Shown: piece after piece, positions 27,279 through 47,637 of the stretch
Layout: the number at the start of each line of letters is the position of its first letter
Numbering within the stretch: the stretch's first letter is position 1
Assembly (NCBI GenBank): GCA_900473045.1
Contig: UCKS01000017.1
Span: 124,001 to 188,000 of the forward strand
Length of the DNA: 64,000 nt
Reading direction: 5' to 3'
Origin: Hyphomicrobiales bacterium
GTDB lineage: Bacteria > Pseudomonadota > Alphaproteobacteria > Rhizobiales > Rhizobiaceae
Translations under genes and position numbers: made by a program
The notes under the pieces: model-generated
What the model was told of the DNA's origin: nothing
Databases searched by the model: none
The model's input: only the letters and a program-made list of their open reading frames with translations

Positions 27279-27293
27279 CAGGATCTCCCTCGT

Positions 27294-27527: not shown

Positions 27528-27541
27528 GGTCTGCTCCTTCC

Positions 27542-27564
27542 GAATAACTATATTTATCAAATCC
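27542..27564 (-). promoter_or_regulatory. AT-rich box before the 77-residue membrane gene (copy 2 of 3)
   Basis: Minus strand GGATTTGATAAATATAGTTA, then TTC; it ends 14 bases before the ATG at 27527 and lies between the virB6 stop and that gene. Confidence 0.45.
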
Positions 27565-27581
27565 ACTTGTGGGAGAACACC

Positions 27582-28601: not shown

Positions 28602-28605
28602 CTCG

Positions 28606-28779
28606 TCATTCCTTCAGGACGGACGTAAACACGTCATTGACCGGGAGGGCAGGGCCACATAAGTCGTCGGCCGGCCTATATCCGGAGATCGGCGGGCAGG
28701 GGGCTTTCTTCTCGCCCTTTGTCTGGCAGCCGGCAACGAAGACCAGCCCTACCAGCATTGTCATCACGAGCAATCGCAT
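28606..28779 (-). CDS. virB7: VirB7-like outer-membrane lipoprotein
   Basis: A 57-codon frame starting ATG at 28779. Its signal peptide ends in the lipobox LVFVAGC (C18), giving a mature lipoprotein of 40 residues with two more cysteines (C28 in KAPCPPISGY, C41 in DDLCGPALPV), one of which could pair with VirB9. Size, lipobox and place between virB5 and virB6 match VirB7, which anchors the core complex to the outer membrane. The stop is 4 bases before the virB6 start. It is short enough to be missed by automatic calling. Confidence 0.85.
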   Translation of the reverse strand: MRLLVMTMLVGLVFVAGCQTKGEKKAPCPPISGYRPADDLCGPALPVNDVFTSVLKE

Positions 28780-28785
28780 GCGGTC

Positions 28786-29502: not shown

Positions 29503-29513
29503 GATGAAACCTC

Positions 29514-30680
29514 TTAATCGGCCGCCTCTGCGGCATTTTGCATGGACAGAAGATTGTCGGCGATCGCGCCGTCGGAATTGCCCGACGACGACAGCACCGA
29601 CGTTTCACCCTCGGCTGCAGCGATGACAGCGCAACGTGGCCAGTCGGCGCGTGGCACCTTCATTTGCTCAAGAATGACGGGATCACAGCTATAGGGATTG
29701 ACGTTGGGATCGGACTTCATGGCCTTGGCGGTCTCGGAGGTCTTTGACAGCTTCATCTGCAGGCGCGCCTGCAACAGCTCGTTAAAGAGGTTGCGTGCGG
29801 TCATCAGGTTGTTCAGCAGCTCGGCGTTGACGGCGCGCGCTTGCGTGTTGTCATCCCAGGCGTCCTGGTAGATTTCCGAGGCGCCGACCGACGACGAGAG
29901 TGCGTCCATACGCCGGCCCGCTTCCTGCACCCGGGCAGAGCTTCTATCGACACCGGAAACCGCCCTGTCGACAGCGCCGACGGCTGCACCATTGGCGTTG
30001 CGCGTTGCCTCGGATCCGTAATCGACAGTGGATTTGAAGGACGGCGACGAGATCTCCTCGATATTTGAGCCACCGGCGTAGGCGTTGAACCATCCATGGT
30101 TCCGACCGACCTTGCCGGCCCAGTTCTTCTGTTCTGCCGCAGTCGAGCCATTGTACCAGGAGGCAAGGCAGGCATAGTCTGTCGTCCCGCACTTGTTGAC
30201 GCCGAGACCCAGATATTTGACGCCGCCCTCGATATTTTCCTCTTTGATATCGCGGTCGAAACCCATGCCCTTGCCGGTGCGTTTCGTCAGCTGCATCACG
30301 CCCTTGACACCGGTGGGTGAGCCCGAGCAGGTAGAAATCCCGGACTCCGCGTGCGCAACAGACAGCGCCAGGCCGACGGGAACATTGTATTTGTCGGCAT
30401 AGTGCTTGATGAGTTCGACATTGCTGGTGTCTTCACTCACTGCCTGCGCCGGCGATCGATACAAACGCCGGTTCTTTTCCTTCTGCGAGATGTTGCAGCT
30501 GGTGACGGTTTGCTCCTCAAGCTGGTCGTCCTGCGTGTCTTTATCGGTAGCCGAATGACCATCGTCCTCGGAGCGCTTGTCCTTCGCGTCGTTATCGAGC
30601 ACAGGCACATCCGCCCAGACAGAGGGTGATGGCGCAAGGGCAAGCCCTGCAGAGAGCAAAAAGAGAACTGCTTTATGCAT
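29514..30680 (-). CDS. Lytic transglycosylase-VirB5 hybrid protein
   Basis: A 388-residue exported protein that joins two modules. After the signal peptide the mature start ADVPVLDN copies the VirB5 start. Residues about 86-215 form an SLT lytic transglycosylase domain with presumed catalytic E112 (LSVAHAESGIS), GVKGVMQLTKRTGKGMGF, NIEGGVKYLGLG and ACLASWYNGST. Residues about 270-345 resemble the VirB5 helical end (ARNLFNELLQARLQMKLSKT, SETAKAMKSDPNVNPY). A separate virB1 transglycosylase (34300) and a plain virB5 (29502) also exist, so this looks like an added tip- or wall-cutting subunit. ATG overlaps the virB4 stop by 8 bases. Confidence 0.85.
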   Translation of the reverse strand: MHKAVLFLLSAGLALAPSPSVWADVPVLDNDAKDKRSEDDGHSATDKDTQDDQLEEQTVTSCNISQKEKNRRLYRSPAQAVSEDTSNVELIKHYADKYNVPVGLALSVAHAESGISTCSGSPTGVKGVMQLTKRTGKGMGFDRDIKEENIEGGVKYLGLGVNKCGTTDYACLASWYNGSTAAEQKNWAGKVGRNHGWFNAYAGGSNIEEISSPSFKSTVDYGSEATRNANGAAVGAVDRAVSGVDRSSARVQEAGRRMDALSSSVGASEIYQDAWDDNTQARAVNAELLNNLMTARNLFNELLQARLQMKLSKTSETAKAMKSDPNVNPYSCDPVILEQMKVPRADWPRCAVIAAAEGETSVLSSSGNSDGAIADNLLSMQNAAEAAD

Positions 30681-33084
30681 CGCTTGCCTCCGGTACCGTC
30701 CAACCGCAGAATTGCGGAAGCCAGGCGGCCGGCTCCTCGCCATACGTCTCTCGCAAATTCTCGCACTCGCGAACGGTTTCCGGACGCCCGGACAGCACCT
30801 TCACCAGGTCGGGCATGGCGGAGAGGTCGAGCCGGGCGATGATCGAGTCCTGGGCATGCTTGACCAGGAAGGTACGGCTTGCCTTGTCTGCCTGCTTGAT
30901 GAACCGGAACTCCTTCTCCGACAGTCCGAAGGCTGTGCGGTAACTCTCCTCATCCGCCGATGCGTTCGGGAAGAAGATGTTGGTCATCGTCTGCTCGATG
31001 ATGGTGTTGCGCAGCTCTGAACGCACCACGTCGGACGCAGATTGGGTGCCGAAGCCGACAATGCCATTCATCTTTCGAATGGTTTTTAGCCAGTCCTTGA
31101 TGAAACCGGAAAACACCTCGTCGTCGAGTAGGCGCCAACCTTCGTCAAGAAAGATCATCGACGGCCGGCCATCGAGGATTTCCTGAATACGGTGAAACAT
31201 ATAAAGGAGAGCGGCCGATCGCGTGCGCTTGTCGGATAGGATCTCCGTCATGTCAAAGCCGATCACCGAGCCTGAGAAATCGAGCTTGTCCTCGGCATTG
31301 TTGAACAGCCAGCCCTTGTCGCCGGTCGTCCATTCCTTCAACCGGTCCGCTAGATCGCCAATACCGGATCGCATCCGGCCCTTCAGCGCCTCCGCCAGCA
31401 TATCAAGGCGACGCTGTGGCCGATCGAAGTCGGTATAGATGCTGTCGACCGCGTCGGAGATCACCGCCATCTCCTCGGCGTGCAGCACCCGGTCCGCCGG
31501 CGTGACTAGATAGGAAATCAGCGACTTGCCAAAACTGCGATTGGCCGGTGTATCGTCAAGTTGCAGGGGCGCAAAGCCTGTTGGCTCGCCCGGTGACAGC
31601 CGCTCGTAGCGTCCACCCATGGCGCGCACGAAAATCTCGCCGCCACGGTCCTTGTCGATAAAGACGCAACGCGGCCGCGGCTCGACCCGCATCCCTTGGG
31701 CAAGGAGGAACGACAGTGCCACCGTCTTGCCGGAGCCGGTCGGGCCGATGACGGTGAAATTGCCGACATCATCCTCGTGGAAATTGAAAAAATAGGCCGT
31801 CTGGCTGGTGGTCTCTAGAAGCGAAACGGGTTTGCCCCAATGAACCTTGTGCGTCTGGCCGGACGGGAAATTATGTGCGGAAAACAGCCCGGCAAAGTTG
31901 ACCGACGAGATCAACCCCTGCCTGGCGACATAGGCGAAGTTCGCCGGCAGCTGTGCCCACCAGGCCGCTTCCTGATTGAGATCTTCACGCACCGCGACGA
32001 CGCCCATGCGCGCAAGCTCGGCGGTGACGTCGGCAACCGCGCGGTTGAGAGCGGCTGGCTCGCGCGCCAGAACGGCGACGGTCATATGGTGTTTGCCAAA
32101 AACGACTTCGCCGGAAGCTAGCCGATCACGGGCCGTTTCGACGTCACCTTCCACGGCCGTACCACCGTCGTCGGAATTGGAGATCTGCCGGCTGATGGTC
32201 GCTATCGCCTCAGTAACGGACGTGCGATCCTCGGGAGCAAAGGAATGGGTGACGATGAACTCGTAAGGGAGGCGCAGCAGCCCGTCGAGTTGGCCCGGCG
32301 TCGTCATCGGCGGGTATTCCTTGATCGACACCATTGCGGCGACCTTGGATGTGGCACCGTCGTCCGACCAGATCTCCGTTGCCTTGCGGCCAAACAGGAT
32401 ACGACCAGTTCCGATATAGTCGGCAAGCGACATACGGGGCAGGGGCATTGACCGCTCGTCACCAGCAGCAAGGATTTTTGCGAAAAACTCGGCCGGCTCG
32501 GAGAAGATGCCACCCTCGCGGGTCACACAGGACAGCAGCTCCGGCCGATAGCTGCGGAAATCCCCAACGATCCCCGAAACTATATCTTTCAGGTCGCGCA
32601 GCGCTTCGCCTTTAGCCTCGACCTCATCGTCTGCCATGCGAAAGACGTCGAACATGCGATCAACCTTGCCGGCGCGCCCAGTCATCGGTCGTCGAATGGC
32701 GGTCAGATAAAGCTCATTGACGAACATCGTCCTGTGCTTCAGCCCATCCATGTAGCGGGCGTTGAGTTCATCGGCGAAAGGATTGTCGAATTCCCCGTCG
32801 ATTGCAGGCACGATCTGCCGACGGATGATCGTCGCATAGAGGGCGAAGCGCGAGGACCCGAGCGACCGCACCGTCATGTTGCGATTGGCGAGCCGCGCAT
32901 TGATCTCTGCCTGGTCCATCGTCTGGTACGGAAGCCCGGAAAGCTTGACGACCTGCAGGAGCATGCCGGTCTTGGTGACGATGGTCTCTTCATCGACATG
33001 GCGCAGATAGGGAACATGGGTGCCGATGCCAATTTCGCGGGCGCGTTCGCGTCCGAACTTTAAATCGTGATTGACGACGTTCAT
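30673..33084 (-). CDS. virB4: VirB4 secretion ATPase
   Basis: An 803-residue ATPase, the most conserved T4SS subunit. The N-terminal CagE/TrbE/VirB domain runs over about 1-400, Walker A GPTGSGKT lies at 447-454, and Walker B is SMIFLDEGWRLLDDEVF. Further family motifs are FIDKDRGGEIFVRAMGGRY and FGTQSASDV. It powers pilus assembly and substrate transfer at the inner membrane. Its ATG overlaps the virB3 stop by 4 bases, and its stop overlaps the start of the transglycosylase-VirB5 hybrid. Length and order are normal for a VirB system. Confidence 0.95.
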   Translation of the reverse strand: MNVVNHDLKFGRERAREIGIGTHVPYLRHVDEETIVTKTGMLLQVVKLSGLPYQTMDQAEINARLANRNMTVRSLGSSRFALYATIIRRQIVPAIDGEFDNPFADELNARYMDGLKHRTMFVNELYLTAIRRPMTGRAGKVDRMFDVFRMADDEVEAKGEALRDLKDIVSGIVGDFRSYRPELLSCVTREGGIFSEPAEFFAKILAAGDERSMPLPRMSLADYIGTGRILFGRKATEIWSDDGATSKVAAMVSIKEYPPMTTPGQLDGLLRLPYEFIVTHSFAPEDRTSVTEAIATISRQISNSDDGGTAVEGDVETARDRLASGEVVFGKHHMTVAVLAREPAALNRAVADVTAELARMGVVAVREDLNQEAAWWAQLPANFAYVARQGLISSVNFAGLFSAHNFPSGQTHKVHWGKPVSLLETTSQTAYFFNFHEDDVGNFTVIGPTGSGKTVALSFLLAQGMRVEPRPRCVFIDKDRGGEIFVRAMGGRYERLSPGEPTGFAPLQLDDTPANRSFGKSLISYLVTPADRVLHAEEMAVISDAVDSIYTDFDRPQRRLDMLAEALKGRMRSGIGDLADRLKEWTTGDKGWLFNNAEDKLDFSGSVIGFDMTEILSDKRTRSAALLYMFHRIQEILDGRPSMIFLDEGWRLLDDEVFSGFIKDWLKTIRKMNGIVGFGTQSASDVVRSELRNTIIEQTMTNIFFPNASADEESYRTAFGLSEKEFRFIKQADKASRTFLVKHAQDSIIARLDLSAMPDLVKVLSGRPETVRECENLRETYGEEPAAWLPQFCGWTVPEASDA

Positions 33085-35497: not shown

Positions 35498-36037
35498 TCA
35501 GAGGTCGGTGAGATCGACGTCGAGGTTCTCTGATATTAATCGCGGCCAAGAAAGGGAAATCAATCTGGGCGACCAGCCGAGCCGCTTGTAGACAGCCTGC
35601 ATGGGAAGCTCATAGACGCCAATGATGCCTTCAATGTTAAATTCGTGCGCTAAGTCACACAAACCACACAGAAGTTGGAGGGCGATGTTCGTTCGTTTCG
35701 GCGTGTCATTGGGGCCGGCATGAACGCAAAACCGCGTGCATTCCCACACTGTTGGGCTCTCAAAGTCCACCGGTTCCCGAAACATCGGCGCGAAATCGCT
35801 CTTGAGCATTGTCGGGCCCGTGGTCGGCAACACCCTCAAAGACCCAACGACGTTTCCCGCGTCGTTGAGTGATATCAGATAGAGAGGATCCCCGCTTCGA
35901 TCGTACAGATCGAATTCTTTGCCGTCGATGACGTCAACATTCCAGTTCATCCGGTCACGGAAAACCCTCGCTCTCCCGCGCAGCATTTCGTTGTAGGATG
36001 GATCACGTTGATCATGCTTAGTCAGTAATTTTAACAT
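35498..36037 (-). CDS. Acyl-homoserine-lactone synthase (LuxI family)
   Basis: A 179-residue autoinducer synthase making an N-acyl-homoserine lactone from SAM and an acyl donor. The invariant residues are present: R24 and F26 (RARVFRDRMNWNVD, W32), E41, D43, D46 (EFDLYDR), R68 (VVGSLRVLP), E99 and R102 in WECTRFCVH. The C-terminus (LGWSPRLISLSWPRLISENL, then DVDLTDL) stops about 20-30 residues earlier than usual, so acyl specificity may be altered. GGGGAGGG precedes the ATG by 4 bases. A lux-box-like dyad lies 57 bases upstream, indicating autoregulation. No luxR gene is in the window. Confidence 0.92.
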   Translation of the reverse strand: MLKLLTKHDQRDPSYNEMLRGRARVFRDRMNWNVDVIDGKEFDLYDRSGDPLYLISLNDAGNVVGSLRVLPTTGPTMLKSDFAPMFREPVDFESPTVWECTRFCVHAGPNDTPKRTNIALQLLCGLCDLAHEFNIEGIIGVYELPMQAVYKRLGWSPRLISLSWPRLISENLDVDLTDL

Positions 36038-36094: not shown

Positions 36095-36114
36095 ATCTAG
36101 CAACTTTGATAGAT
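36095..36114 (-). promoter_or_regulatory. lux-box-like operator before the AHL synthase gene
   Basis: Minus strand ATCTATCAAAGTTGCTAGAT, of the form NNCT-N12-AGNN known for LuxR-type sites, with symmetric ATCTA/TAGAT and CAA/TTG halves. The dyad extends two bases on each side (36093-36116). A close relative lies at 46104-46123. Confidence 0.7.
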
Positions 36115-36306: not shown

Positions 36307-37542
36307 CTAAGTTTTCCAAACGGCCGAGTTGCCGGATATCTCGATCCTCGTACCGACCTTCGCTGAATGCTCTTGAAAGCGCATCAATATCCTCTCGGCA
36401 TCATCACCACGGGCAAGTTCCGGCGCAAGGCGTTGTTCCAAAGCGTCAGTCCGTGACGGTTCGGCGCCGCCGATAATGATCGGACGAAAGGACATTCCGA
36501 CGAGCTTGCCATCATCCCCAAACGAGCATAGCCCGATGACGCTTTCCCAGACCTCGCGAGCCATCCAGGGCGACTTGTCGGATTTTACGTGGAAGATGAA
36601 ATTGCCCAGACTGTAGAAGATTGGCCTTTGACGGTAAATTTCGACCGGCTGGAGAACGGGGGCGCCATGGCTGACAAACATGGCCGCGCCTGCATCGATG
36701 CATTTTTTTGCAAACGCGCCCACCCATTCGGGAACCTGATACCAGTCGGAGGCCCAATGGTGGTGATGCAGGTAGGCGATGACGAGGTATCCGTCCTCTG
36801 CTGCAGATGTGATTGCGGCGAGGTTTCGCGCTGTGTCGACCTCATCGACCGTAATGTTTCGACCGACCCTATCGGCGCGCCTGAATATAGCGCGTGCGAT
36901 ACTGATTTCGGCTTCGGGATCAACGTAAGGCGTATCGTCTGGTTGGCTGTCGTTGCCGAGATCCATCCTCGTATATCCGACCTTGTCACGGACCTTTCGC
37001 AATTGTTCGAAATCGTTGTCGTCCACGTCAATTACCTTGGTCACCCTCAGCCGGTTCACGCCCGGCCGCTCGGGACGGCCAGGCGACGCATCTCCAGCGT
37101 ACATAAAGTCCGGGCCCGGTCCTCCATCCATGGCAACGAGTGCCACCTTCCTGCCCCCAAACGACCCCTTGCCAGAGCGCGCCGCCGCGGTGTGGTTGCG
37201 CCCGATGCCGGCGTGAAGGAAGCCGCGCCTTTCGACTTCCTCGGAGGTTGACAGGATTCCCGAAGGTCCAAGGTCAAAAGCATGATTGTTGGACAGTGAA
37301 AGCGCCTGGAATCCGAGTGCCTGAAGGCTGTCGAGAACAACCGGCTGGCTGCATCCGAAGAACGATCCTTTCATCGGCCATCCGCCATGGCTTCCAAGGA
37401 TCGTGCTTTCGAAGTTGGTGAACGAGAGGTCGGCTTGACCAAGGACCTCCCGCGCCTCGCGAAACCCCTGTGTCTCAACACCTCGAATGTCGTGTTTGAT
37501 AAGAGATTGCCCGGTTACGGCGATCTTGAATGTGTTTGTCAT
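36307..37542 (-). CDS. CapA-like metallophosphatase-fold protein
   Basis: A 411-residue protein of the CapA/PgsA family (calcineurin-like phosphoesterase fold, first known from poly-gamma-glutamate capsule synthesis). Motifs in order: VTGQSLI at the N-terminus, DLSFTNFEST, SLSNNHAFDLGPSG, AYLHHHHWASDW and FVSHGAPVLQPVE, then FYSLGNFIFH. No signal peptide or membrane helix is seen, so unlike CapA of Bacillus it appears cytoplasmic. It is the last gene after the ABC importer (100-base gap), so it may act on the imported compound. True substrate unknown. Confidence 0.82.
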   Translation of the reverse strand: MTNTFKIAVTGQSLIKHDIRGVETQGFREAREVLGQADLSFTNFESTILGSHGGWPMKGSFFGCSQPVVLDSLQALGFQALSLSNNHAFDLGPSGILSTSEEVERRGFLHAGIGRNHTAAARSGKGSFGGRKVALVAMDGGPGPDFMYAGDASPGRPERPGVNRLRVTKVIDVDDNDFEQLRKVRDKVGYTRMDLGNDSQPDDTPYVDPEAEISIARAIFRRADRVGRNITVDEVDTARNLAAITSAAEDGYLVIAYLHHHHWASDWYQVPEWVGAFAKKCIDAGAAMFVSHGAPVLQPVEIYRQRPIFYSLGNFIFHVKSDKSPWMAREVWESVIGLCSFGDDGKLVGMSFRPIIIGGAEPSRTDALEQRLAPELARGDDAERILMRFQEHSAKVGTRIEISGNSAVWKT

Positions 37543-37641: not shown

Positions 37642-39321
37642 TCAGTGCGTGAATCGTCTGGGGCGGGCATCGATCAGGCTTCGGGTGTACGGGTTTTGTG
37701 AATGTGTGAAGATGAACTCCGACGAGCCCGCGTCTTCGACCCTGCCATCCTTGAAAATGTAGATCGAACTGCAAAGCTCCTGCACGAGGGCGAGGTCGTG
37801 AGAGATGAAAAGCATGGAAATGCCCCGCTCCCTCACGGTTTCCTTCAAAAGCTGGACGATCTCTGCCTGTACGGACACGTCAAGGGCTGAGGTCGGTTCG
37901 TCGGCAACGATGATGCTCGGGCCTGCGAGAAGCGCGCGCGCGATGCATATTCGTTGCTTTTGTCCGCCCGAAAGTTGATGGGGATACCGGGGGAGGAGGC
38001 TTCGCGCCAACCCGAGCCGATCCATCATTGTCCCCACAATCGACAGTTCATCCTTCGCCATGGCTGCGCCGAACCGGACACTTTCCCGCAAGCTCTCACT
38101 AATCGACATGCGCGGGTTCAACGACATCGCCGGGTCCTGAAAGATCATCTGCACCTTTCCAAGCAGGCCGCTGCGCGATCCGGACCGCGAAGGATCGAAA
38201 CACGTATCATCGATCTCGATCTTTCCCCCGCCGGCGGTTTCGAGGCCGGCAATGATCCGTCCGATCGTGCTCTTGCCGCTGCCACTTTCACCAACAATTC
38301 CCGTGATCAACCCCCGGTCCAATTGAACGCAAACATCCTGCAATGCGGCTGTCTGGGTCCTCTTGCGCAATAGCGCGAACCGGCGACCGGAAAAGCACTT
38401 CGTTATTCCTTGTGCGACGAGGATTGGGCTCGCGCCAGGTTCTGCAGAACCAGAGTACAGGGGCGGGTCGTTCAGATGTTCGGTGCGTTCCTTTCTCTCC
38501 CCGGCGCCTGACACCCGCAGTCTTGGAACTGCGGCGAGAAGGCTTCGGGTATATGTCCGTTGTGGTGCGTCGAGGAGCGATGATGTAGGCCCCTGTTCGA
38601 CGATCTCGCCATGTCGCATGACGATTACACTGTCCGTGATTTCCGAGACGACCCCCATGTCGTGGGTCACCAGGATGATCGATACATTGGTTTCCTCCAC
38701 GAGCTCGCGGAGAAGATAGAGGATTTGTTTTTGAACCGTCGCGTCGAGCGCGGAGGTCGGCTCATCTGCAATGATAATGTCGGGTCTGCCGGCAAGCGCG
38801 ATGGCAATGACGGCACGCTGGCGCTGCCCGCCGGAAAACTGATGAGGGTAATGGTGATATCGTTGGTCAAGGTCAGGAATGCCGACGCGGGTCAGCAATT
38901 GAATAGCCTCGTCGCGTGCTTGCCGTCGTGACATGGTGTCTTTTGTGGCAAGGATCGTTTCTTCAAGTTGCGGACCGATGGCCATCAGCGGATCGAGCGA
39001 TGCGGTATGATCCTGGAAGATCGCTGATATCCTGCGCCCTCGGATCGTGTCCCATTGGCGTTCGTTGTTACCGTCCAGCGGTTTGCCATCGAAGAGGATG
39101 GTGCCGGTCGTCCGTTCGAAGTCGGGCGAGAGCAGGCCGAGGATGGCATTGCCAAGGGAGGACTTTCCCGCTCCGGATTCACCGATGACCCCAAGGATTT
39201 CACCGCGCTGAAGGCTCAGGCTCACATCCCGCAGGATTGTCGTTAAACCTGCAGTCGCACGATAGGTCAGGGTGAGATTGCTGACGACCAGCAATGGTTC
39301 TTGGGTACTGTGCAATGTCAT
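37642..39321 (-). CDS. Double ATP-binding protein of a peptide-type ABC importer (DppD-DppF fusion)
   Basis: A 559-residue protein with two full ABC ATPase domains in tandem. First: Walker A GESGAGKSS, signature FSGGQRQR, Walker B DIIIADEPTSALD. Second: Walker A GESGSGKST, signature LSGGQKQR, Walker B SIIVADEPTSALD. Each ends in a peptide/nickel-type C-terminal piece (RTYTRSLLAAVPRL and NPYTRSLIDARP). Such fusions power Dpp/Opp/Gsi-type importers. The ATG at 39321 overlaps the end of the permease gene by 4 bases; the open frame runs on to 40041 but that part is a different register over the permease. Confidence 0.93.
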   Translation of the reverse strand: MTLHSTQEPLLVVSNLTLTYRATAGLTTILRDVSLSLQRGEILGVIGESGAGKSSLGNAILGLLSPDFERTTGTILFDGKPLDGNNERQWDTIRGRRISAIFQDHTASLDPLMAIGPQLEETILATKDTMSRRQARDEAIQLLTRVGIPDLDQRYHHYPHQFSGGQRQRAVIAIALAGRPDIIIADEPTSALDATVQKQILYLLRELVEETNVSIILVTHDMGVVSEITDSVIVMRHGEIVEQGPTSSLLDAPQRTYTRSLLAAVPRLRVSGAGERKERTEHLNDPPLYSGSAEPGASPILVAQGITKCFSGRRFALLRKRTQTAALQDVCVQLDRGLITGIVGESGSGKSTIGRIIAGLETAGGGKIEIDDTCFDPSRSGSRSGLLGKVQMIFQDPAMSLNPRMSISESLRESVRFGAAMAKDELSIVGTMMDRLGLARSLLPRYPHQLSGGQKQRICIARALLAGPSIIVADEPTSALDVSVQAEIVQLLKETVRERGISMLFISHDLALVQELCSSIYIFKDGRVEDAGSSEFIFTHSQNPYTRSLIDARPRRFTH

Positions 39322-40193
39322 ACCGAACGGCTCCTTGGATCCAGGCTGCGCCGGACGCCCTCGCCGACGAAATTGATGCTCGCGATGAGGCCGAACAGGG
39401 CGAGGCCGGGGAACAGGCTGATCCAGTATTGACCGGTCATCAGGTACTGGAAGCCATTTGCAACAGTGGAGCCAAGCGAAGGCTTGTCCACTGGCACCCC
39501 CAGTCCTAGAAATGACAGCGTTGCCTCGAGTGCAACGGCGTGCCCCAATTCTATAGGGATCAATGTAATGGCCGGCGCGATACTGTTGGGAAGCAGGTGG
39601 CGAAAGAGGACCCTCCGCGTGGGGAGCCGCAAGAGCCGCGCTGCATCCAGATAGGGCTTGCCGGTTTCGCTCAACGCAACACCTCGAATGACCCTGGCGT
39701 AGGTTGCCCACTGCACGATGATAATCGCCAGTATGATCCGATCGATCCCTGGTCCAAGTGTGACAATGGCAATTAGGGCCACCAGGATGGTTGGAAGGCT
39801 GAGCTGGAGGTCGACGATCCGCATGATGACGACATCGACCCACCTGCCGAAATATGCGGCACTGACCCCCGCGGTAAGGCCGATGAGAGCAGCGACAACG
39901 GTGCTGGTAATAGAAACAACGAGGCTGATGCGCAGGCCGTAGAGGATGGTGCTGAGTATATCGCGCCCGAGACCGTCGGTGCCGAGCAGATAAAAGTACC
40001 CGGGGCCTCCCATGGTCCCGGGAGGCGAAGACGCTTCCCATCCATAGATCTGTAATGGATCGTACGGATTTTGCGGCGCGATGAGAGGCGCTGCCAACGC
40101 CAGCAGAACGTAGGCTGCGAGCAGGAACCCGGGTAGGCTAATGCTCATTCCCCTGTGGCGCTTCCAAAGCGCACGGAGTGTATTGGCTTTCAT
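39318..40193 (-). CDS. ABC importer permease, DppC/OppC type
   Basis: A 291-residue inner-membrane permease. After the N-terminal OppC-type helix (PGFLLAAYVLLALAAPLIAP) comes the LLGTDGLGRDILSTILYGLR block, five further helices and the EAA loop (EATLSFLGLGVPVDKPSLGS is the C-terminal family signature, ALSETGKPYLDAARLLRLPT the EAA-type loop). Pairs with the DppB-type permease. AAAGGA stands 6 bases before the ATG at 40193, which decides against the upstream ATG at 40208. Overlaps the ATPase gene by 4 bases. Confidence 0.92.
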   Translation of the reverse strand: MKANTLRALWKRHRGMSISLPGFLLAAYVLLALAAPLIAPQNPYDPLQIYGWEASSPPGTMGGPGYFYLLGTDGLGRDILSTILYGLRISLVVSITSTVVAALIGLTAGVSAAYFGRWVDVVIMRIVDLQLSLPTILVALIAIVTLGPGIDRIILAIIIVQWATYARVIRGVALSETGKPYLDAARLLRLPTRRVLFRHLLPNSIAPAITLIPIELGHAVALEATLSFLGLGVPVDKPSLGSTVANGFQYLMTGQYWISLFPGLALFGLIASINFVGEGVRRSLDPRSRSV

Positions 40194-40204
40194 GGAATTT
40201 CCTT

Positions 40205-41176
40205 TCATGTGGAAAGGCGCACGCGCGGATCGAGCACGGCGTAGAGCAGGTCGACGAGCGCATTGAGCCCGACGAAGGCGAGGGAAACGAAGGTCAAGGT
40301 TGCCATCACGACTGGCCGGTCGAGAAGTTGAATGGAGTCGATCAAGAGCTTGCCTATTCCCGGCCAGGCGAAGATGGTCTCCACCACGACTGCAAAGGCC
40401 AGCATTCCGCCGAACTGCATTCCGACGATCGTGACGATGGGAATGCTGATATTCGGCAGTGTATGCCGAAACAGGATGCGCCTCGCTGAGAGGCCTTTTG
40501 CCCGGCAGAACCGGACGAAATCCTGGCTTTCAACCTCGATCGTTCCCGCCCGCGCAAGCCGCGCGATAAGCGCAATGTTGGGAATGGCAAGCGCCAATGC
40601 GGGCAGGGTCAGCCGCCGCAGGCCCTCCAGCGTCAGGAAACTCCACTCCTGGCCAACCAAGGAAACCGTTGGTCCGCGGCCACCTGACGGAAACCAACCC
40701 AAAGTGATCGCACCGACCAGGATGAGGACCATGCTCAGCCAGAATGACGGAATGCTGAGGGCAAAGACACTCGCCTTGAGAATGGCGCGATCGATTGCGC
40801 AACCCTGTCTTCGGCCTGCCAGCAAGCCCAGCAAGGTGCCGCACGGAGCTGCGATCAACATGGCCATTGAGGCCAGCTCCAGCGTCGCAGGCAGCTTGCT
40901 CATTACCAGATCAAAGGCTGGCAGGTGGTAGATGTACGACGTTCCGAAGTTTCCGGTGACGACATTGCCCATGAAGAGAAGATATTGCCGCCAGAGCGGC
41001 TGATCTAAGCCCAGCGCGATCGTTGCGTTGCGAATGTCTGCGGCGGTTGCTGTTTCGATATTGACGATATTGTAGACCGGGTTGCCGACGCTGTGGATGC
41101 CGACAAACCCTATCACCGACATGACGAGGAGGAGGAGCGCGGCTTGTGAAAGCCTTCCAACGATGGTGGTCACCAT
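40205..41176 (-). CDS. ABC importer permease, DppB/OppB type
   Basis: A 323-residue inner-membrane permease. The N-terminal helix (ALLLLVMSVIGFVGIHSVGN), the OppB-type LGLDQPLWRQYLLFMGNVVT-GNFGTSY block, five more helices and the EAA loop FVRFCRAKGLSARRILFRHT, then VVVETIFAWPGIGKLLIDSI are all typical. It ends in DLLYAVLDPRVRLS as OppB proteins do. Start ATG at 41176 (MVTTIVGRLS); longer readings overlap the binding-protein gene. It lies 10 bases after the binding-protein stop and 11 bases before the next permease. Confidence 0.92.
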   Translation of the reverse strand: MVTTIVGRLSQAALLLLVMSVIGFVGIHSVGNPVYNIVNIETATAADIRNATIALGLDQPLWRQYLLFMGNVVTGNFGTSYIYHLPAFDLVMSKLPATLELASMAMLIAAPCGTLLGLLAGRRQGCAIDRAILKASVFALSIPSFWLSMVLILVGAITLGWFPSGGRGPTVSLVGQEWSFLTLEGLRRLTLPALALAIPNIALIARLARAGTIEVESQDFVRFCRAKGLSARRILFRHTLPNISIPIVTIVGMQFGGMLAFAVVVETIFAWPGIGKLLIDSIQLLDRPVVMATLTFVSLAFVGLNALVDLLYAVLDPRVRLST

Positions 41177-41186
41177 GGGCGTGCCC

Positions 41187-42779
41187 TCACTCTTCCGAGG
41201 GAACGGCTTGCATGGCCGTCGTCCATCCCCGCGGATGCACCGCGTAGGAACCCACTTTTTGCCCATGCCCGACGATCAGGTGGAAATGATAAAGCGGAAG
41301 CATCGGATAGTCGGCCATGGCCAGTTCTGTTGCGCCAGCGATTGCCGCGCTACGATCCGGACCATCCTCCATGGACATGGCCTTCTCCAGCATCGCGTCA
41401 AAGGTCTGGTTCTGGTATTTTCCATAGTTGAGTGATCCGGCCCCCGATTTCGCATCCGGAGAGCCCAGAACGGCTCTGAGGCAGAAGGTCACGGCCTCGC
41501 CGGAGCAGCCGCCGTACCAGACAGGGTAGGCGCCATCTGATCTTTGCGTGGCGAAGACCGAAAACGGCGCCACGACCGGTTGGGCGCTGACACCTATTCT
41601 CGCCCAGTTCTGCGCGATGGACTGCAAGGATTCGCTGTCGCCGGGATACCGGCCGGCGGGCCCGGCAAGCACGACCTTGAAGCCGTCGGGAAAACCTGCC
41701 TCCGTGAGAAGGGCTTTTGCGCCCCCATAATCCGGTGGTGCCACCGTGAGGTTGGGCGACGTTCCTGACAAGCCGGTCGGAAAGAGCTGCGCTGCGGGCG
41801 TTCCGTAGCCGAGGAGAATCTTCTCGGCGAGAAAGGGGCGGTCTGTCGCCATCGTCAGGGCCTGGCGCACGCGCTCGTCCCGAAAGGGGTTTTTAACGGC
41901 ATTCCCCGCTTTGTCGGTGATGCCGGGTGGCTTCTCCCGAGCGATATCGAACTGCAGGAAATTGGAACGGGCAGCGCTGGTACTTTCGATCGCCAACCCG
42001 CGGCGCTCAAGCCCTTCGACGTCGCGCGACGGTATATAATCCGCGAGATCGACATCACCCGTCGTCAAAGCGGCGACGCGCGCAGCGGGGCTTTCGATGA
42101 CTTGGAAAGCCACCTCTGACCAGGCAGGTGCGCTGCCCCAATAGGCATCGTTGCGCATCAGGCTGAGGACTTCACCGGATTGCCAGCTCTGGAATTTGTA
42201 GGGTCCGGTCCCAACGGACTGCTTTCCAGAGTTGACATCCTGTGTGGTCGCAAAGTCTCCCGACTTGTGACCCATGATGAAAATAGAGGTCATTGAAAGC
42301 GGGAGGGTCGGGACATCGCTGCTCGTCTCGATGACCACGGTCATTGGATCAGGCGCCGTGACGGATTTGATCGCCTGCGTATAGGTCTGGAACCCGCCAC
42401 TCGGCGGCTTCAGGAAGTCCCGGATGCGCTCGATCGAGTAGATGACGTCCTGAGCGGTGAAGGGCGAGCCGTCATGGAAGCGGACGCCGTCCCTCAGCTT
42501 GAATTCCCATTGCGTCTCTGACAACCGTTTCCAGGAAATCGCAAGGCCGGGCTGAGGGTTCAACTGGCGGTCCTGAATCACGAGACGTTCGTAGATATGG
42601 GATAGCAGTGAGTTGTTCTCATTGAGGTCCGCGTAGTGCGGATCGAGCGTCATCAGCTTGAGCTGTGTCCCGATGCGCAAGTCCTCCGCCATGGCCGAGG
42701 TCCCGAGAAACCCCGCAGATACTGCCGTAGCGACGCTTGCTACAAGTGTGTACGTGCGGAGACGATGCAGTGATTGCAT
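41187..42779 (-). CDS. Periplasmic solute-binding protein of a peptide-type ABC importer (SBP_bac_5)
   Basis: A 530-residue family 5 binding protein. Signal peptide (TYTLVASVATAVSAGFLGTS, cut at AMA-E), then LRIGTQLKLMTLDPHYADLN, YERLVIQDRQLNPQPGLAIS, FKLRDGVRFHDGSPFTAQDV and VGTGPYKFQSW, the hallmark motifs of DppA/OppA-like proteins. The ligand could be a peptide, opine-like compound or sugar; sequence alone does not say. GGGAA lies about 9 bases before the ATG at 42779. It is the first gene of the importer operon, with the palindrome TCACGCGTGA about 95 bases upstream. Confidence 0.92.
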   Translation of the reverse strand: MQSLHRLRTYTLVASVATAVSAGFLGTSAMAEDLRIGTQLKLMTLDPHYADLNENNSLLSHIYERLVIQDRQLNPQPGLAISWKRLSETQWEFKLRDGVRFHDGSPFTAQDVIYSIERIRDFLKPPSGGFQTYTQAIKSVTAPDPMTVVIETSSDVPTLPLSMTSIFIMGHKSGDFATTQDVNSGKQSVGTGPYKFQSWQSGEVLSLMRNDAYWGSAPAWSEVAFQVIESPAARVAALTTGDVDLADYIPSRDVEGLERRGLAIESTSAARSNFLQFDIAREKPPGITDKAGNAVKNPFRDERVRQALTMATDRPFLAEKILLGYGTPAAQLFPTGLSGTSPNLTVAPPDYGGAKALLTEAGFPDGFKVVLAGPAGRYPGDSESLQSIAQNWARIGVSAQPVVAPFSVFATQRSDGAYPVWYGGCSGEAVTFCLRAVLGSPDAKSGAGSLNYGKYQNQTFDAMLEKAMSMEDGPDRSAAIAGATELAMADYPMLPLYHFHLIVGHGQKVGSYAVHPRGWTTAMQAVPSEE

Positions 42780-42873
42780 TATGATGTTCCCTTCTTGTTT
42801 TTGTGACCACGGCGCAGTGATTGAACTCTTCAACGTGCACGCTTTGGCGCCCGCGCAGCGATGAATCTATCGC

Positions 42874-42883
42874 TCACGCGTGA
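42874..42883. promoter_or_regulatory. Palindromic operator candidate TCACGCGTGA (copy 1)
   Basis: Centre of a 12-base perfect palindrome CTCACGCGTGAG, 95 bases before the importer operon and 196 bases before the XRE gene. The same 10-mer is found at 46287-46296 before the MFS exporter gene. Confidence 0.5.
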
Positions 42884-42994
42884 GGTATGCTTCAGTCATA
42901 AGTCCGGAGGAGTTTCTATGGATGATTGCGGGCAAAGTTCTGCTATTCTCAGAATCAGCCATGATCCGAGCTCCCAACAGCTTGATTGTGGTTA

Positions 42995-43078: not shown

Positions 43079-43324
43079 TTGAGTAAAGATCATCTCACCG
43101 TTGAGCAGTGCCGTGGGGCACGGGCTATGTTGGGCTGGAGCCAGGCGCAGCTTGCGGAAGCAGCAAATGTGTCACGCCAGACAATTGCTGACTTCGAACG
43201 CGGAGCCCACAAACCGATTGGCAACAATCTGGCAAGCATAGTCGCATCGTTTGTGAAGGCCGGAATCGATTTCATTCCGGAAAATGGCGGTGGCGCGGGA
43301 GTTCGCTTTAGGGACTCGAAATAG
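43079..43324 (+). CDS. XRE-family helix-turn-helix regulator
   Basis: An 81-residue small DNA-binding protein. The HTH core is CRGARAMLGWSQAQLAEAAN, VSRQTIADFERGAHKPI (about residues 11-47), followed by a short C-terminal tail (GIDFIPENGGGAGVRFRDSK) typical of a stand-alone rhizobial XRE group. The start appears to be TTG at 43079 since no in-frame ATG lies before the HTH; ribosome site weak. It is divergent from the ABC importer operon and convergent to the unknown 471-residue gene. It is the obvious candidate to bind the local palindromes. Confidence 0.82.
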   Translation: MSKDHLTVEQCRGARAMLGWSQAQLAEAANVSRQTIADFERGAHKPIGNNLASIVASFVKAGIDFIPENGGGAGVRFRDSK

Positions 43325-43499: not shown

Positions 43500-44915
43500 T
43501 CAGACGCCGGACCACCTCCACTCGTCGGAGTCGCGAGTTATCTCGCCTGCGGCGATGTGTCCTGACAACTCGGCCCAAATCGGATCCGTCGTAAAGCTTG
43601 CAAGATCGCCGCTGGCTTGCACCAATGGCATCTCCGCATAACTTGCTAAAAGGGGCGAGACGCCCCCAGCACGCCCGATCTCCTGAAACGGATAGCCGCC
43701 GGATGGTCTCAGGACGCGATGACCCCATAGTCCGGGTCGTTCGTCTTCCCTGAGTGCTTTCAGGAGACTGAGATCGCCAGATCGTTCAATACAGAGGGAC
43801 GCCAGATACCGCATCAGCGGAAAATAGACCGTCTGGCGGCATCCCCCGAGGACCCTCACGCCCGGTAGGATCGAGGTCACCAGAAACGCAGTGAACAAGC
43901 TGGGTAGGATCGCGCGCTGGCGAAGAGCCGTCGCAAGGCTGCCAGGGCTAAATCCAACTTCGTAGCTTGAGGACCGATCGGTTCGCAGCTTGCCGTCTTG
44001 CAGGCGCAACGGGACAACTCTGTTTTTCTCCAGGCGCCAGAAGAAGTCCGTCGTTCGGCGGACCCAGCCTCCCCACGCGGAAGCGTTCAGGCGGTCGATC
44101 TCACTCAATGTAGATTCCGCGATCGCGCCATCGCCTATCATATGCACCGGCATCCATGATCCCTCATCGCAAAGGTGGTCGGCAATCAGGTCAGCAATGT
44201 CGAAATCATCGAGTTGAAGCAACTTTACCGACGGGGGGAACTTGCTACGCCACAGAGTTTGATTGGCCATCCTGATCGCTTCAGCTGCCGACGGAAATGC
44301 AGCGGACGGCAATTCTTCGAGGAGACGAGCAGCAGAGAAATTCGGTGCGGCTTGGCCCCTGGAGTTCGAAAGCGCGAAACGATAGGGGCCGTCCGAGCAA
44401 GCAATGCTGCTGCCGTCCATCTGGCTTCGCGGAAGGCCGAAGAGGTTGAGCGGCTCGCCTTCAAGCTGAAGCCAGCCCGGGCCCTTTTTTGCCTTTTCTT
44501 TGAACGCCGACGTCGAGACAAAGTAATTTATGTGCCATTGTCGGCCATGGGCCATCAAACCGAGCAAGCTGAACAAATGTGTGTAAAACGCGTCGGGTTC
44601 GATCACCAGCATGCAATGCGGGCCGGTCTGCAGTACCGGCGACGCGAATAGCTCGAGACTGGCGCTTCGAGCCTCCTCTTCGTCATAGCCCGACCTGCGG
44701 GCTGCCCTTTCGACGCAATTGCGCAGGAGATGCATTGCATGGTCCCGCGTAGCACTATCGGACTGATAACGCTTGCTCTCGTAGACAGTCGACGCATACG
44801 CCCGCAGCGACCGCGTCCAGTAGGGGGCAAGATGCGGCATCAGGTATGACAATGAACGTCGCACATCGGCCGCGCTGGAGTGCTCGCCTAGTTCAGCCGA
44901 ATGTCTCGTGTTCAT
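43500..44915 (-). CDS. Unrecognised 471-residue protein coupled to a methyltransferase
   Basis: No family recognised. The product is soluble, without signal peptide or obvious membrane helix, apart from a short hydrophobic stretch (LPSLFTAFLVTSILPGVRVL, about 350-369) followed by GGCRQTVYFPLMRYLASLCI. Other distinctive parts are VLQTGPHCMLVIEPDAFYTH, LFSLLGLMAHGRQWHINYFV and GPGWLQLEGEPLNLFGLPRS. These are loosely like the TG(Q/P)-containing N-terminus of BshC-type ligases, a weak resemblance only. The ATG lies 1 base after the methyltransferase stop, so both are made together. With the lux-box-like site upstream of the pair, a role in quorum-controlled small-molecule synthesis is inferred. 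Confidence 0.75.
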   Translation of the reverse strand: MNTRHSAELGEHSSAADVRRSLSYLMPHLAPYWTRSLRAYASTVYESKRYQSDSATRDHAMHLLRNCVERAARRSGYDEEEARSASLELFASPVLQTGPHCMLVIEPDAFYTHLFSLLGLMAHGRQWHINYFVSTSAFKEKAKKGPGWLQLEGEPLNLFGLPRSQMDGSSIACSDGPYRFALSNSRGQAAPNFSAARLLEELPSAAFPSAAEAIRMANQTLWRSKFPPSVKLLQLDDFDIADLIADHLCDEGSWMPVHMIGDGAIAESTLSEIDRLNASAWGGWVRRTTDFFWRLEKNRVVPLRLQDGKLRTDRSSSYEVGFSPGSLATALRQRAILPSLFTAFLVTSILPGVRVLGGCRQTVYFPLMRYLASLCIERSGDLSLLKALREDERPGLWGHRVLRPSGGYPFQEIGRAGGVSPLLASYAEMPLVQASGDLASFTTDPIWAELSGHIAAGEITRDSDEWRWSGV

Positions 44916-44916
44916 T

Positions 44917-45987
44917 TCATAGCGCCGCAGGTCGTTTCGGAGCGAGCGACGTCATCGTCTTGGCCTTACGCCACGAAAGAGCAGTGGCGACCGGGTCGTA
45001 ATCCGTATCGATAAGCGCAGTCGGGAGTTTTTCGTAGCAATAGGCGGGAGGGATCGCCGGTTTCACCATCAACGATACGAACTCCAAGATTGACGCCCGA
45101 GAATTCGATGAGACGATGGTGTAGAAATTGCCGCTGTTCCAGGTCAGAGCGCAATAGCGGAAAAACAATCCAAGAGCGGACACGGTGGTTTTTAGATCGA
45201 CTTGGCAACTCGCCATCGTGCTGAGGATCTCAGCCTTCTTCTCGGATATCTGACCCGAAGTGAAGTAACGGCTCTTGAATAACTCATCCTTCTGGCGCTC
45301 GCGCTCCTCATAGACGTCCTGGTTTTCATTCGCGAGCTTTTGAACTTGCACGAGGATACCGCCGTGCCGAATGCGAGGCGCGATGAACGCCAATTGCTGC
45401 GCCCTATCCCGATCGTACATCTGAAAGGTCGTGTCCTCGACCAGGACGTCGAAACCATCGCGGAATGGCAGAAGATCCATATCCGTTGCGTAGCGATTGC
45501 TGTCCAGATCGAAGAACGGTCCAAGAAAGAAATGGGCGTGTTCGCTTCCGCGCTTGGCAAGAAATGCCTCCTTATTGGCGGGTGTCGGACTGCAGGCGAG
45601 GGTCTTTATCCGCCCGTCGCCAAGCGCCGCGACCGAGCGTGCGAGGCAGCCCGTCCCTGCGCCCAAGGTATAAACAGTTGCCGGCAAGCCGGTCCGGGCC
45701 CAGGCTTGTAGCGAGAAGGTGAAAATGGCGGCCCCGAGACGGCAAGTCTCTTCGAGTCTGTAAGGAATGCTTGCGTGATAGTGGCTGTCGAAGTTTCCGA
45801 AGAGGCGTGTGTGCGTATCACCGTAGGCAGCACAGTCGAGATCGAAATCAAGTAGACTAAGGTCCGGTTCAGGTCGCGCAAGGTTCGGGGTGCCTCCCTG
45901 CCCACGCGCAGTTCTTTCAAAAAATGTGGAGAACGTTGTTAGCCGCGGCGCGTTACGCCAGCGTTCAATTGTTTGCGGGTCAACCAA
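44917..45987 (-). CDS. Class I SAM-dependent methyltransferase-like protein
   Basis: About 356 residues with the SAM-binding motif I VYTLGAGTGCLARSVAAL (glycines near 109-113), then KTLACSPTPANKEAFLAKRG as motif II region and DGFDVLVEDTTFQMYDRDRA, RIRHGGILVQVQKL further on. The N-terminal 100 residues are extra and not recognised. The frame is open to a TTG at 46104, but that codon lies inside the lux-box-like site; the TTG at 45987 has GGAGG 8 bases before it and is preferred. It is first in a two-gene unit with the unknown 471-residue protein. Acceptor molecule unknown. Confidence 0.75.
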   Translation of the reverse strand: MVDPQTIERWRNAPRLTTFSTFFERTARGQGGTPNLARPEPDLSLLDFDLDCAAYGDTHTRLFGNFDSHYHASIPYRLEETCRLGAAIFTFSLQAWARTGLPATVYTLGAGTGCLARSVAALGDGRIKTLACSPTPANKEAFLAKRGSEHAHFFLGPFFDLDSNRYATDMDLLPFRDGFDVLVEDTTFQMYDRDRAQQLAFIAPRIRHGGILVQVQKLANENQDVYEERERQKDELFKSRYFTSGQISEKKAEILSTMASCQVDLKTTVSALGLFFRYCALTWNSGNFYTIVSSNSRASILEFVSLMVKPAIPPAYCYEKLPTALIDTDYDPVATALSWRKAKTMTSLAPKRPAAL

Positions 45988-46103: not shown

Positions 46104-46123
46104 ATCTAGCGATTTTGGCAGCT
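46104..46123 (-). promoter_or_regulatory. lux-box-like operator before the methyltransferase gene
   Basis: Plus strand ATCTAGCGATTTTGGCAGCT, again NNCT-N12-AGNN, identical to the plus-strand reading of the 36095-36114 site at 14 of 20 positions, with the flanking CGACA also shared. Ends 117 bases before the preferred TTG start at 45987. Confidence 0.6.
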
Positions 46124-46286: not shown

Positions 46287-46296
46287 TCACGCGTGA
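46287..46296. promoter_or_regulatory. Palindromic operator candidate TCACGCGTGA (copy 2)
   Basis: Same 10-mer as at 42874-42883, here 120 bases before the MFS exporter ATG at 46417. Confidence 0.5.
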
Positions 46297-46416
46297 TCGA
46301 TGATGCCCCAATAGGGTTACCCCACTGACGGTTCAGATTCCAACCGAAGGCGTGTGGAGCCCCGCCTGGCCGATACGCAATTTACTCGCGACGCATTTGC
46401 AAGGAAGGTGACGGAG

Positions 46417-47637
46417 ATGGGCGAAGAGCAAACTAACCCGCATGCTGCCCTGTTTCTCGTTATCGGGGCGGGCCTCGTCACTATCGCCCGAGCGATGACG
46501 TTATCTTTTCTCGCAATAAAACTGCAGCAGTCCTTCGGCTTGGGCCCGGCCATGATTGGATTTTTGTTGGGCCTTGGCCCGTTGATTGGAGCGGTGGCGG
46601 CACCGTTCGCAGGATCATTCTCGGACAAAGTTGGGCGCAGGACAGTCCTCACGTTCACCTTGGTTTCGATGGCGTTCGCCATGATCGGCATAGGGCTAGC
46701 CAAAACGGTGTTCGCGTTTTGCCTCGCACAAAGCGCGGCCTCTGTCGCGATCTCGGTTTACGGATCGACTTCACGCGCGCTGATGAGCGACATTTGCGCC
46801 GAACGCGATCGGCTTAAGTACTTCTCTTGGCGATACACCTCATCGAATATTGGATGGGCGATCGGTCCGTTGATCGGCGTTTTGGCGGGTATTGCCTCGA
46901 CCGGCCTCTTCATCACCGCCGGCACAGTTTACGCCACGCTCGCAGTCGGCTTGCAGCTTTTGAAGCTTCCGCGATGTGACCGCCCTGACGGTCATGTATC
47001 GAAGCAAGTCTCTTTGATCAAAAGTGTTATCACCGCGATGCGTGACCGACAATTGACCTACTTTATTGGCGGCAGCGCGTTGCTGATCGCGGTCTATGGT
47101 CAATGGACCGCCACGCTGGCTCCCTACATCACGCAGCATATAGCGAGCGGTGCCGAAATTTTCGCCTATCTCGTGTCGATAAACGGTGTCGTTGTCTTGA
47201 GCGGAAACCCGATCGCGCGGCGGCTCATTGGGCACGTTGGCCCTTTGCGCTCGCTTTTGGTCGGCTGCGTTCTTCTAGGCTTTGGCCAGATGGGTTTCCT
47301 GGTGTCCACCGGATTGGCGGGGTTTGCTGTTTCCATGGTCATCTTTACGGCGGGCGAGATCCTCGTCGTACCTTCAGAATATACAATGGTTGATCGCATC
47401 TCGCACTCTCAAAACCGGGGCAGCTATTTCGGTGCCCATTCGCTCTCGACTGTCGGCGGATTCCTTGGCCCGGCCGTAGGCGGCGCAACCCTCGGCATTT
47501 TTGGCGGGCCCGCCATGTTCATTCTGTTCGCAGGGGCTGCGGCAATCGGCGCCTGGCTTTTTACCTTGGGCACACGACCCCAACCACAGGGCGGCAAAGC
47601 CCCTTTGTCTAGCCGTCAAAAGACCAGTAACCACTGA
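46417..47637 (+). CDS. MFS transporter (drug/metabolite exporter type)
   Basis: A 406-residue major facilitator with 12 predicted helices, e.g. AALFLVIGAGLVTIARAMTL, MIGFLLGLGPLIGAVAAPFA and FLGPAVGGATLGIFGGPAMF. The cytoplasmic loop 2-3 motif is GSFSDKVGRRTVL, the MFS signature. The ATG at 46417 has AAGGAAGG about 8 bases upstream and is preferred to the GTG at 46354, which adds a charged leader. It is divergent from the methyltransferase/unknown pair, sharing a 430-base control region with a lux-box-like site and the TCACGCGTGA palindrome. Export of the product of that pair is the natural guess. Confidence 0.87.
   Translation: MGEEQTNPHAALFLVIGAGLVTIARAMTLSFLAIKLQQSFGLGPAMIGFLLGLGPLIGAVAAPFAGSFSDKVGRRTVLTFTLVSMAFAMIGIGLAKTVFAFCLAQSAASVAISVYGSTSRALMSDICAERDRLKYFSWRYTSSNIGWAIGPLIGVLAGIASTGLFITAGTVYATLAVGLQLLKLPRCDRPDGHVSKQVSLIKSVITAMRDRQLTYFIGGSALLIAVYGQWTATLAPYITQHIASGAEIFAYLVSINGVVVLSGNPIARRLIGHVGPLRSLLVGCVLLGFGQMGFLVSTGLAGFAVSMVIFTAGEILVVPSEYTMVDRISHSQNRGSYFGAHSLSTVGGFLGPAVGGATLGIFGGPAMFILFAGAAAIGAWLFTLGTRPQPQGGKAPLSSRQKTSNH

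Follow-up and report, generated by a model that had tools for sequence, protein, structure and literature searches.

BshC adds cysteine in the synthesis of bacillithiol and ranks as a putative biosynthetic enzyme that attaches amino acids. According to a 2015 review, its activity had by then not been demonstrated in vitro and its mechanism was unknown (PMC4360819); homologues are reported in archaea in a second source (PMC7278568). In the cystargolide pathway, as described in two papers, amino acids are coupled through ATP-grasp and amide-bond synthetase enzymes (PMC11427300; PMC11408123) and CysG forms a carboxyl methyl ester (PMC11427300). Here we analyse a gene pair in 64,000 nucleotides of DNA (hereafter the window) from a Hyphomicrobiales bacterium of the Rhizobiaceae (contig UCKS01000017.1, positions 124,001 to 188,000). 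The pair encodes a 471-residue protein, most probably with the BshC / class I synthetase fold, and an S-adenosylmethionine (SAM)-dependent methyltransferase, and it probably helps to build a small exported peptide-like molecule. The pair and its immediate surroundings are:

43500–44915, minus strand: gene for the 471-residue protein of predicted BshC fold [open reading frame (ORF) of 471 codons; AlphaFold2 model; BshC 4wbd the best PDB match]
44917–45987, minus strand: SAM-dependent methyltransferase with a predicted CmoA / CysG-BelI-like fold and a likely TTG start (model, fold matches, PHROG 4752)
46104–46123, minus strand: lux-type box AGCTGCCAAAATCGCTAGAT upstream of the methyltransferase (dyad derived from relatives; the sole window match)
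46354–47637, plus strand: major facilitator superfamily (MFS) exporter, divergent from the pair (Pfam MFS_1, E 1.7e-39)

A single A separates the methyltransferase stop (TGA) from the ATG of the 471-residue gene, the one-base spacing already read in the first-pass annotation. The window sits on a 283-kb contig of a 6.78-Mb genome, in which the 471-residue gene gives one match. The pair genes are not chance ORFs, because 151 plasmid records hold a tblastn match to the 471-residue protein (137 cover at least 80% of its length). A scan of species genomes for relatives of this protein returned 73 loci, the closest of which, L011, encodes a protein 86% identical to that of the window. Taken mechanically, the methyltransferase ORF opens at TTG 46104. 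TTG 45987 is the likely start, because L011 has an ATG there after GGAGG and because the conserved lux-type box occupies 46104–46123.

The 471-residue protein had been described as carrying no recognisable domain, and the family scans agree (no match in Pfam, NCBIfam, PHROG or PADLOC); a degradative or housekeeping family is ruled out on this ground. A phmmer search of the PDB returned only two designed helical-repeat proteins, over residues 54–91, and a profile search gave five weak, unrelated matches (E ≥ 0.34), from which BshC is absent. The fold is more telling. The AlphaFold2 model, computed from an alignment (A4) of the proteins of 62 loci and the window, has a mean pLDDT of 92.8 and a pTM of 0.92. 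Foldseek identifies one PDB chain at E ≤ 0.001, Bacillus subtilis BshC [PDB-id: 4wbd, E 6.1e-6, probability 1.00], followed by a class I lysyl-tRNA synthetase (E 0.014). VIA-align ranks them in the same order [BshC, Z-score: 17.3, 356 residues, root-mean-square deviation: 4.1 Å, 10% identity; class I LysRS, PDB-id: 1irx, Z-score: 13.6, 279 residues, 4.0 Å], and the remaining chains reach at most 7.3. Because of these matches to BshC and LysRS, we assign the modelled protein most probably to the BshC / class I synthetase fold. The HMM and structure-prediction search suggested by the first-pass annotation has thus given no sequence family and, as its sole good fold match, a putative amino-acid-adding enzyme.

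The likeness to BshC extends over the same overall fold across 356 of the 471 residues. By our reading, both proteins also have a strand-loop-helix where the first glycine-rich loop lies and, towards the end, a P..G-G...Y segment, arranged in similar order. Identity is nevertheless only about 10%, and the C-terminal coiled-coil dimerization domain of BshC has no counterpart in the 471-residue model, which contains no helix longer than 20 residues. The protein also shares its fold with the class I lysyl-tRNA synthetase 1irx, whereas neither a KMSKS motif nor an anticodon-binding part could be recognized by eye. A check against the HIGH and KMSKS signatures of class I synthetases found an invariant Q..GPH at the first loop and, by eye, no KMSKS-like run. 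The protein is best called BshC-fold, not BshC. No published description of the family stands among the literature matches listed. Nor do these describe BshC-like proteins in rhizobia or in natural-product clusters, which is weak evidence of absence, the matches listed being in some cases only 5–25 of thousands of papers and including neither subscription papers nor preprints. A scan of viral contigs for a degenerate BshC motif found two stretches, and no BshC-like ORF was recognized there.

Across the 63 sequences of A4, 24 columns are invariant, as an active site would show; they include Q96, G98, P99, H100, D237, H247, R354, G357, G358 and Y364. The block singled out in the first-pass annotation as conserved in style is part of this pattern, with its Q96, G98, P99 and H100 invariant and T112 and H113 kept in 60 of 63. 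A4 omits the near-identical strains L047, L050, L054, L058, L059, L061, L062 and L070, and also L042, L076 and L078, in which the 471-residue gene carries an internal stop or frame breaks. These broken copies suggest that the gene is dispensable in some strains.

The methyltransferase model (pLDDT 92.2) is placed by Foldseek closest to CysG and by VIA-align closest to CmoA, in a near tie (CmoA, Z-score: 19.4; CysG and BelI 18.2–18.9, CysG 18.9). A profile search of PDB sequences gives CmoA (E 0.0067), and Pfam and NCBIfam match the protein weakly. Among an alignment of 60 methyltransferases (those of 59 of the 70 loci that have one, plus that of the window), the CmoA models of NCBIfam reach 15 members (NF011995, best E 0.0034) and four (TIGR00740, best E 0.008), far below family level. 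They are surpassed in E-value by PRK00517 (best E 0.00043, seven of 60), and the window's own protein matches no NCBIfam CmoA model. The enzyme thus has its fold in common with the O-methyltransferases CysG and BelI of the cystargolide and belactosin pathways and with the carboxy-SAM synthase CmoA, all at Z 18.2–19.4, but is 16–22% identical to them. The sources on cystargolide and belactosin describe an assembly style free of non-ribosomal peptide synthetases (NRPS), which we also propose here (PMC11408123; PMC11427300), whereas no isopropylmalate or β-lactone genes were recognized by eye among the window ORFs. As CysG methylates a carboxylate in the cystargolide pathway, a reasonable guess by analogy is that the window enzyme would also act on a carboxylate; tRNA is a possible substrate.

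For the neighbourhood survey, reference proteins taken from the window and from annotated plasmids were matched against the ORFs at the 73 loci. Its counts refer to genes within about 10 kb, and some loci are cut by contig ends. A methyltransferase relative accompanies the 471-residue protein in 70/73 loci, namely in all 70 whose record titles place them in Hyphomicrobiales and in none of three from Legionella. It lies on the same strand ahead of the 471-residue gene in 47 of the 70, in three of which (L071, L073, L078) an MFS gene stands between the two, and is divergent in 23, with AraC and MFS genes in between. LuxR (32/73) or AraC (23/73) genes are commoner than luxI, an XRE-type helix-turn-helix (HTH) regulator occurs in 39 and PepT in four. 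Annotated plasmids show the same layouts, and in three of them a GNAT acetyltransferase lies directly downstream. Rhizobium etli CFN42 has the AraC type, on p42d, and a Sinorhizobium meliloti strain (L013) the LuxR type. The pair is largely plasmid-borne: 121 of the 151 matching plasmid records are typed conjugative, 143 bear genus names that we take to belong to the Rhizobiaceae, and six are from Streptomyces. In sampled genomes of the window's family the protein is matched in 16/199 (partial or with a stop in G498, G529 and G564). At the phylum level it is matched in 12/398, one of these a doubtful stretch of 46 residues and the others all from the window's own family.

Among the distant relatives, the Legionella proteins are 24–26% identical to the 471-residue protein. 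The neighbours of the gene in L083 are a flavin-reductase-like gene, an Asp/Glu racemase, an ATP-grasp gene of the L-amino-acid-ligase type and an MFS gene, a run that by eye is the same in L081; L082 was compared with the reference proteins alone. Upstream of the L083 copy there are also a second MFS gene and, at 3667–4452 of that locus, a gene of the tetrapyrrole-methylase family (Pfam, 63.9 bits). The relative from Streptomyces, whose profile match has P 7e-19 across 164 columns, is surrounded by L-amino-acid-ligase-type ATP-grasp, pyridoxal-phosphate decarboxylase, epimerase-like and MFS genes and by a gene resembling 2-ketoarginine methyltransferase (391 bits against a cut-off of 425). 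This last protein was ruled out as a homologue of the window methyltransferase, to which it shows no similarity. On a Nitratidesulfovibrio plasmid the copy follows a 1012-residue protein with an MFS domain; in Mesorhizobium WSM1497 it adjoins a GNAT gene amid genes with cyclase domains, and a methyltransferase is annotated about 3 kb from it. No NRPS or polyketide synthase (PKS) is annotated or was seen in these stretches. Members of the family are thus repeatedly accompanied by MFS genes and, in two lineages that are unrelated to each other, also by enzymes of kinds that usually couple amino acids. The proposal of a possible new biosynthetic enzyme is supported by this setting and by the lack of any housekeeping match, its function being a predicted one.

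The site upstream of the pair, noted earlier as lux-box-like, recurs in relatives, and a similar one precedes luxI in the window. A 20-bp dyad derived from five LuxR-bearing relatives, the window left out, matches the window once at up to three mismatches (46104–46123; 0.12 matches expected, one reached in 9 of 100 shuffles). A wider consensus, AYCTNNCGAAATCGNNAGRT, matches the same site at two mismatches and 36095–36114, before luxI, at three; the window as a whole contains four matches at up to three mismatches (1.9 expected; four reached in 12/100 shuffles). Box counts cover 77 loci, 70 from genomes and seven from plasmids. At the same threshold, 30 of 38 loci with LuxR have the wider-consensus site ahead of the methyltransferase gene, compared with four of 15 that have neither LuxR nor AraC and none of 24 with AraC. 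The consensus was drawn from the counted loci and is partly circular, and near-identical strains were kept separate, so that relatedness inflates the counts; the AraC group and random 500-bp windows (64 matches in 3080) serve as controls. The box occupies the same place upstream of the methyltransferase in L011 and other loci, L011 keeps both lux-type sites, and a pattern shaped on the two window sites is found genome-wide at those sites only. In Rhizobium etli 8C-3, the one module LuxR scanned, the autoinducer-binding domain is present. The lux-type dyad thus recurs upstream of the pair in relatives in the way a LuxR-controlled operon would, so far as sequence can tell. A palindrome, TCACGCGTGA, occurs exactly twice in the 64 kb, at 42874–42883 before the importer operon described below and at 46287–46296 in the methyltransferase/MFS intergenic region. 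Not kept in L011, it was dropped as a shared operator in favour of the lux dyad.

From gene order, the fold match, co-occurrence and the recurrence of the box we infer the following scheme. The 471-residue BshC-fold enzyme (class I aminoacyl-tRNA-synthetase-like, HUP) would couple a small amine to an amino acid or related carboxylate, and the methyltransferase would methylate either the product or the substrate, with a carboxylate as the most likely site. The divergent MFS protein would export the product, a small peptide-like molecule made without NRPS or PKS, and a LuxR-type regulator would switch the pair on through the lux box. The peptide-type ATP-binding cassette (ABC) importer, CapA and XRE genes form a frequent, non-constant partner unit that may re-import the product or its analogues. 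On balance we favour this reading, in which an amino-acid-joining enzyme of BshC fold would act with the methyltransferase and MFS protein in a plasmid-borne pathway that is under quorum control, needs no NRPS and yields a small product resembling a peptide. A bolder version is put forward tentatively and with rather less belief. It holds that the protein founds a new family of amide- or ester-forming ligases of BshC fold and that, with the CmoA/CysG-like methyltransferase, it produces signals or antagonists of a new peptide-like class made without NRPS, under quorum control on conjugative plasmids of Rhizobiaceae, with relatives that serve in clusters of Legionella and Streptomyces. A new handle on BshC chemistry would come from a second family of BshC fold that is distinct in sequence and set in a small-molecule context. 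The pair is moreover compact and widespread on symbiotic and agrobacterial plasmids (the 151 records with a match); what it makes could therefore be a molecule bound up with plasmid biology that is common in the rhizosphere but has escaped notice.

Several results weigh against the favoured reading. No sequence-family tie to BshC is found. The BshC family model PF10079 matches none of the 63 members even at E ≤ 10, although the same model finds its targets in B. subtilis and two other control genomes; it is absent from the host genome and from the 398 sampled Pseudomonadota genomes. hhalign comparisons with BshC are not significant, either for A4 against four BshC proteins or for the Streptomyces/Nitratidesulfovibrio pair. 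In a local profile-profile test with eight targets BshC ranks first with either query profile, scoring 22.0 where the other targets reach no more than 19.5 and 21.5 where they reach no more than 18.5, but with P 0.10–0.12 these alignments are not significant. In global mode it is not the best of the eight, its scores being 0.89 where others reach up to 3.97 and 0.06 where they reach up to 5.41. For one of the two profiles the local alignment is collinear over 298 columns. Of the BshC motifs considered (GGQQAG, EDHD, GPGE) the local comparison pairs the first, in GGQQAG..GPLYTIHK, with QTGPH..EPDAFYTH, at a non-significant score. Since the activity of BshC had not been demonstrated in vitro by 2015, even a true homologue would give weak functional guidance. 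The methyltransferase has a common fold, with Z ≥ 8 for 995 of 1000 chains, and its best PHROG match, 4752, is named ‘tRNA methyltransferase’ (E 7.3e-6).

Linkage and regulation raise further objections. The first-pass annotation had grouped a methyltransferase and an exporter with the 471-residue gene and expected its homologues to be linked to methyltransferase or luxI genes; the link to the methyltransferase holds, but luxI is within reach in only 3/73 loci and an MFS gene in 34/73. CapA (35/73), GNAT (26/73) and the solute-binding protein (SBP) importer (22/73) are likewise not constant. No luxR adjoins luxI in the window. The host genome has eight Autoind_bind matches, none on the window's contig, and the LuxR proteins of six of these loci, those compared, are 24–28% identical to that of the module. 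Among the four relatives with luxI only L011 has a lux-type site before it, L018, L073 and L009 having none. Finally, the annotations of the rhizobial plasmid stretches examined show no ATP-grasp ligase next to the pair, so the pathway looks short.

One possibility, which we consider rather unlikely, is that the product acts outside the cell as a signal or antagonist linked to the carriage of the plasmid, be it a pheromone or a Trojan-horse peptide against which an acetyltransferase gives self-protection, and not as a nutrient or metal scavenger. LuxR control and plasmid location point in this direction, as do the GNAT genes found near the pair in about a third of the loci and directly behind it in the three plasmids; no such activity is known, however, and the 64-kb window itself contains no GNAT match.

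A role outside biosynthesis, in which the pair modulates plasmid conjugation or translation directly through modification of tRNA or protein, we consider improbable. The conjugative typing of most plasmid records and the transfer-protein relatives near 38/73 loci (TraR counted, some matches weak) would suit it, and both folds have tRNA-related members, the class I synthetases and CmoA; the PHROG matched by the methyltransferase also bears a tRNA methyltransferase name. Other genes of unknown function in such regions, RcgA and RcgR, modulate transfer, and according to two papers they share with our pair their location in rhizobial plasmid transfer regions (PMC9601222; PMC13055273). This literature presents RcgR as α/β-hydrolase-like and RcgA as having transmembrane domains, and concerns proteins other than this pair. 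The Legionella and Streptomyces relatives, on the other hand, adjoin amino-acid-ligase-type and MFS genes. In the stretches listed, no transfer genes were recognized near them; the exception is type II secretion/CpaF-type genes that lie some 15 kb away from the copy in Streptomyces.

It is no more probable that the 471-residue protein has kept just the BshC/class I synthetase scaffold for an unrelated role such as ligand binding. This would account for the lack of a significant sequence relation to BshC and of a KMSKS-like motif recognizable by eye, but the 24 invariant columns in 63 sequences have the look of an active site. Least probable is an opine-type metallophore system resembling that of staphylopine, in which a chelator is made, exported by the MFS protein and returned as metal complex by the SBP_5 ABC importer: an MFS gene is present, and NikA is the best match of the solute-binding protein (E 1.5e-42), which reaches the staphylopine receptor CntA too (E 1.6e-27), below both cut-offs, yet the importer is near in only 22 loci, the enzyme folds are BshC-like and CmoA/CysG-like, and no opine dehydrogenase or nicotianamine synthase stands among the fold matches listed, which in itself excludes nothing.

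Anti-phage defence was rejected as well; PADLOC matches neither the 471-residue, MFS nor CapA protein, and of the four proteins scanned only the methyltransferase gives a match, a weak one to mads_2 (E 0.028). Past the pair, the order is XRE (plus strand), then on the minus strand the ABC importer, a CapA-family gene, luxI and virB-type transfer genes:

43079–43324, plus strand: XRE-type regulator, located between the predicted biosynthetic pair and the operon for the importer (Pfam HTH_3, E 3.1e-9)
41187–42833, minus strand: solute-binding protein of a peptide/nickel/opine-type ABC importer (Pfam SBP_bac_5, E 6.3e-76)
39318–41266, minus strand: two ABC permease genes, 40205–41266 and 39318–40208 (ORFs; gene order kept in relatives)
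37642–39315, minus strand: ABC ATPase, putative start (ORF; 94% identical in L011)
36307–37542, minus strand: CapA/PGA_cap family protein with a distant likeness to the lasso-peptide epimerase MslH (Pfam PGA_cap, E 2.5e-47)
36095–36114, minus strand: second lux-type site, ATCTATCAAAGTTGCTAGAT, upstream of luxI (three mismatches to the consensus)
35498–36037, minus strand: luxI-type acyl-homoserine-lactone synthase (Pfam Autoind_synth, E 1.4e-34)
20702–33084, minus strand: genes presumably of virB/virD4 type for transfer, named by us from their sequences (ORFs; context)

The best NCBIfam match of the MFS exporter is YdeE (E 2.1e-37) and the sole one of the CapA-family protein MslH (E 7.7e-44), both below cut-off. 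Relatives of three of the virB/virD4-type genes lie near several homologous loci, some by weak matches. Similarity between the window and L011 stops at the 3′ end of luxI, where L011 has luxR.

Between the XRE gene and the importer operon, at 42867–42985 on the minus strand, lies a nearly invariant stretch (..GGAGCTCGGATCATGGCTGATTC[TC]GA..AATAGCAGAACTTTG..) that is present in 22 other loci. It marks the start of a small ORF, reading MADS[ED]NSRT.. in most copies, which has 31 codons in the window and is longer in many relatives; synonymous sites are conserved too. A 26-mer core of the stretch occurs once in the host genome and, at up to two mismatches, in 28/199 family genomes, 12 of which also match the 471-residue protein and 16 of which do not; the reversed core gives none among the matches listed. 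An HTH relative lies within 1.5 kb of such a stretch in 26 of 30 copies.

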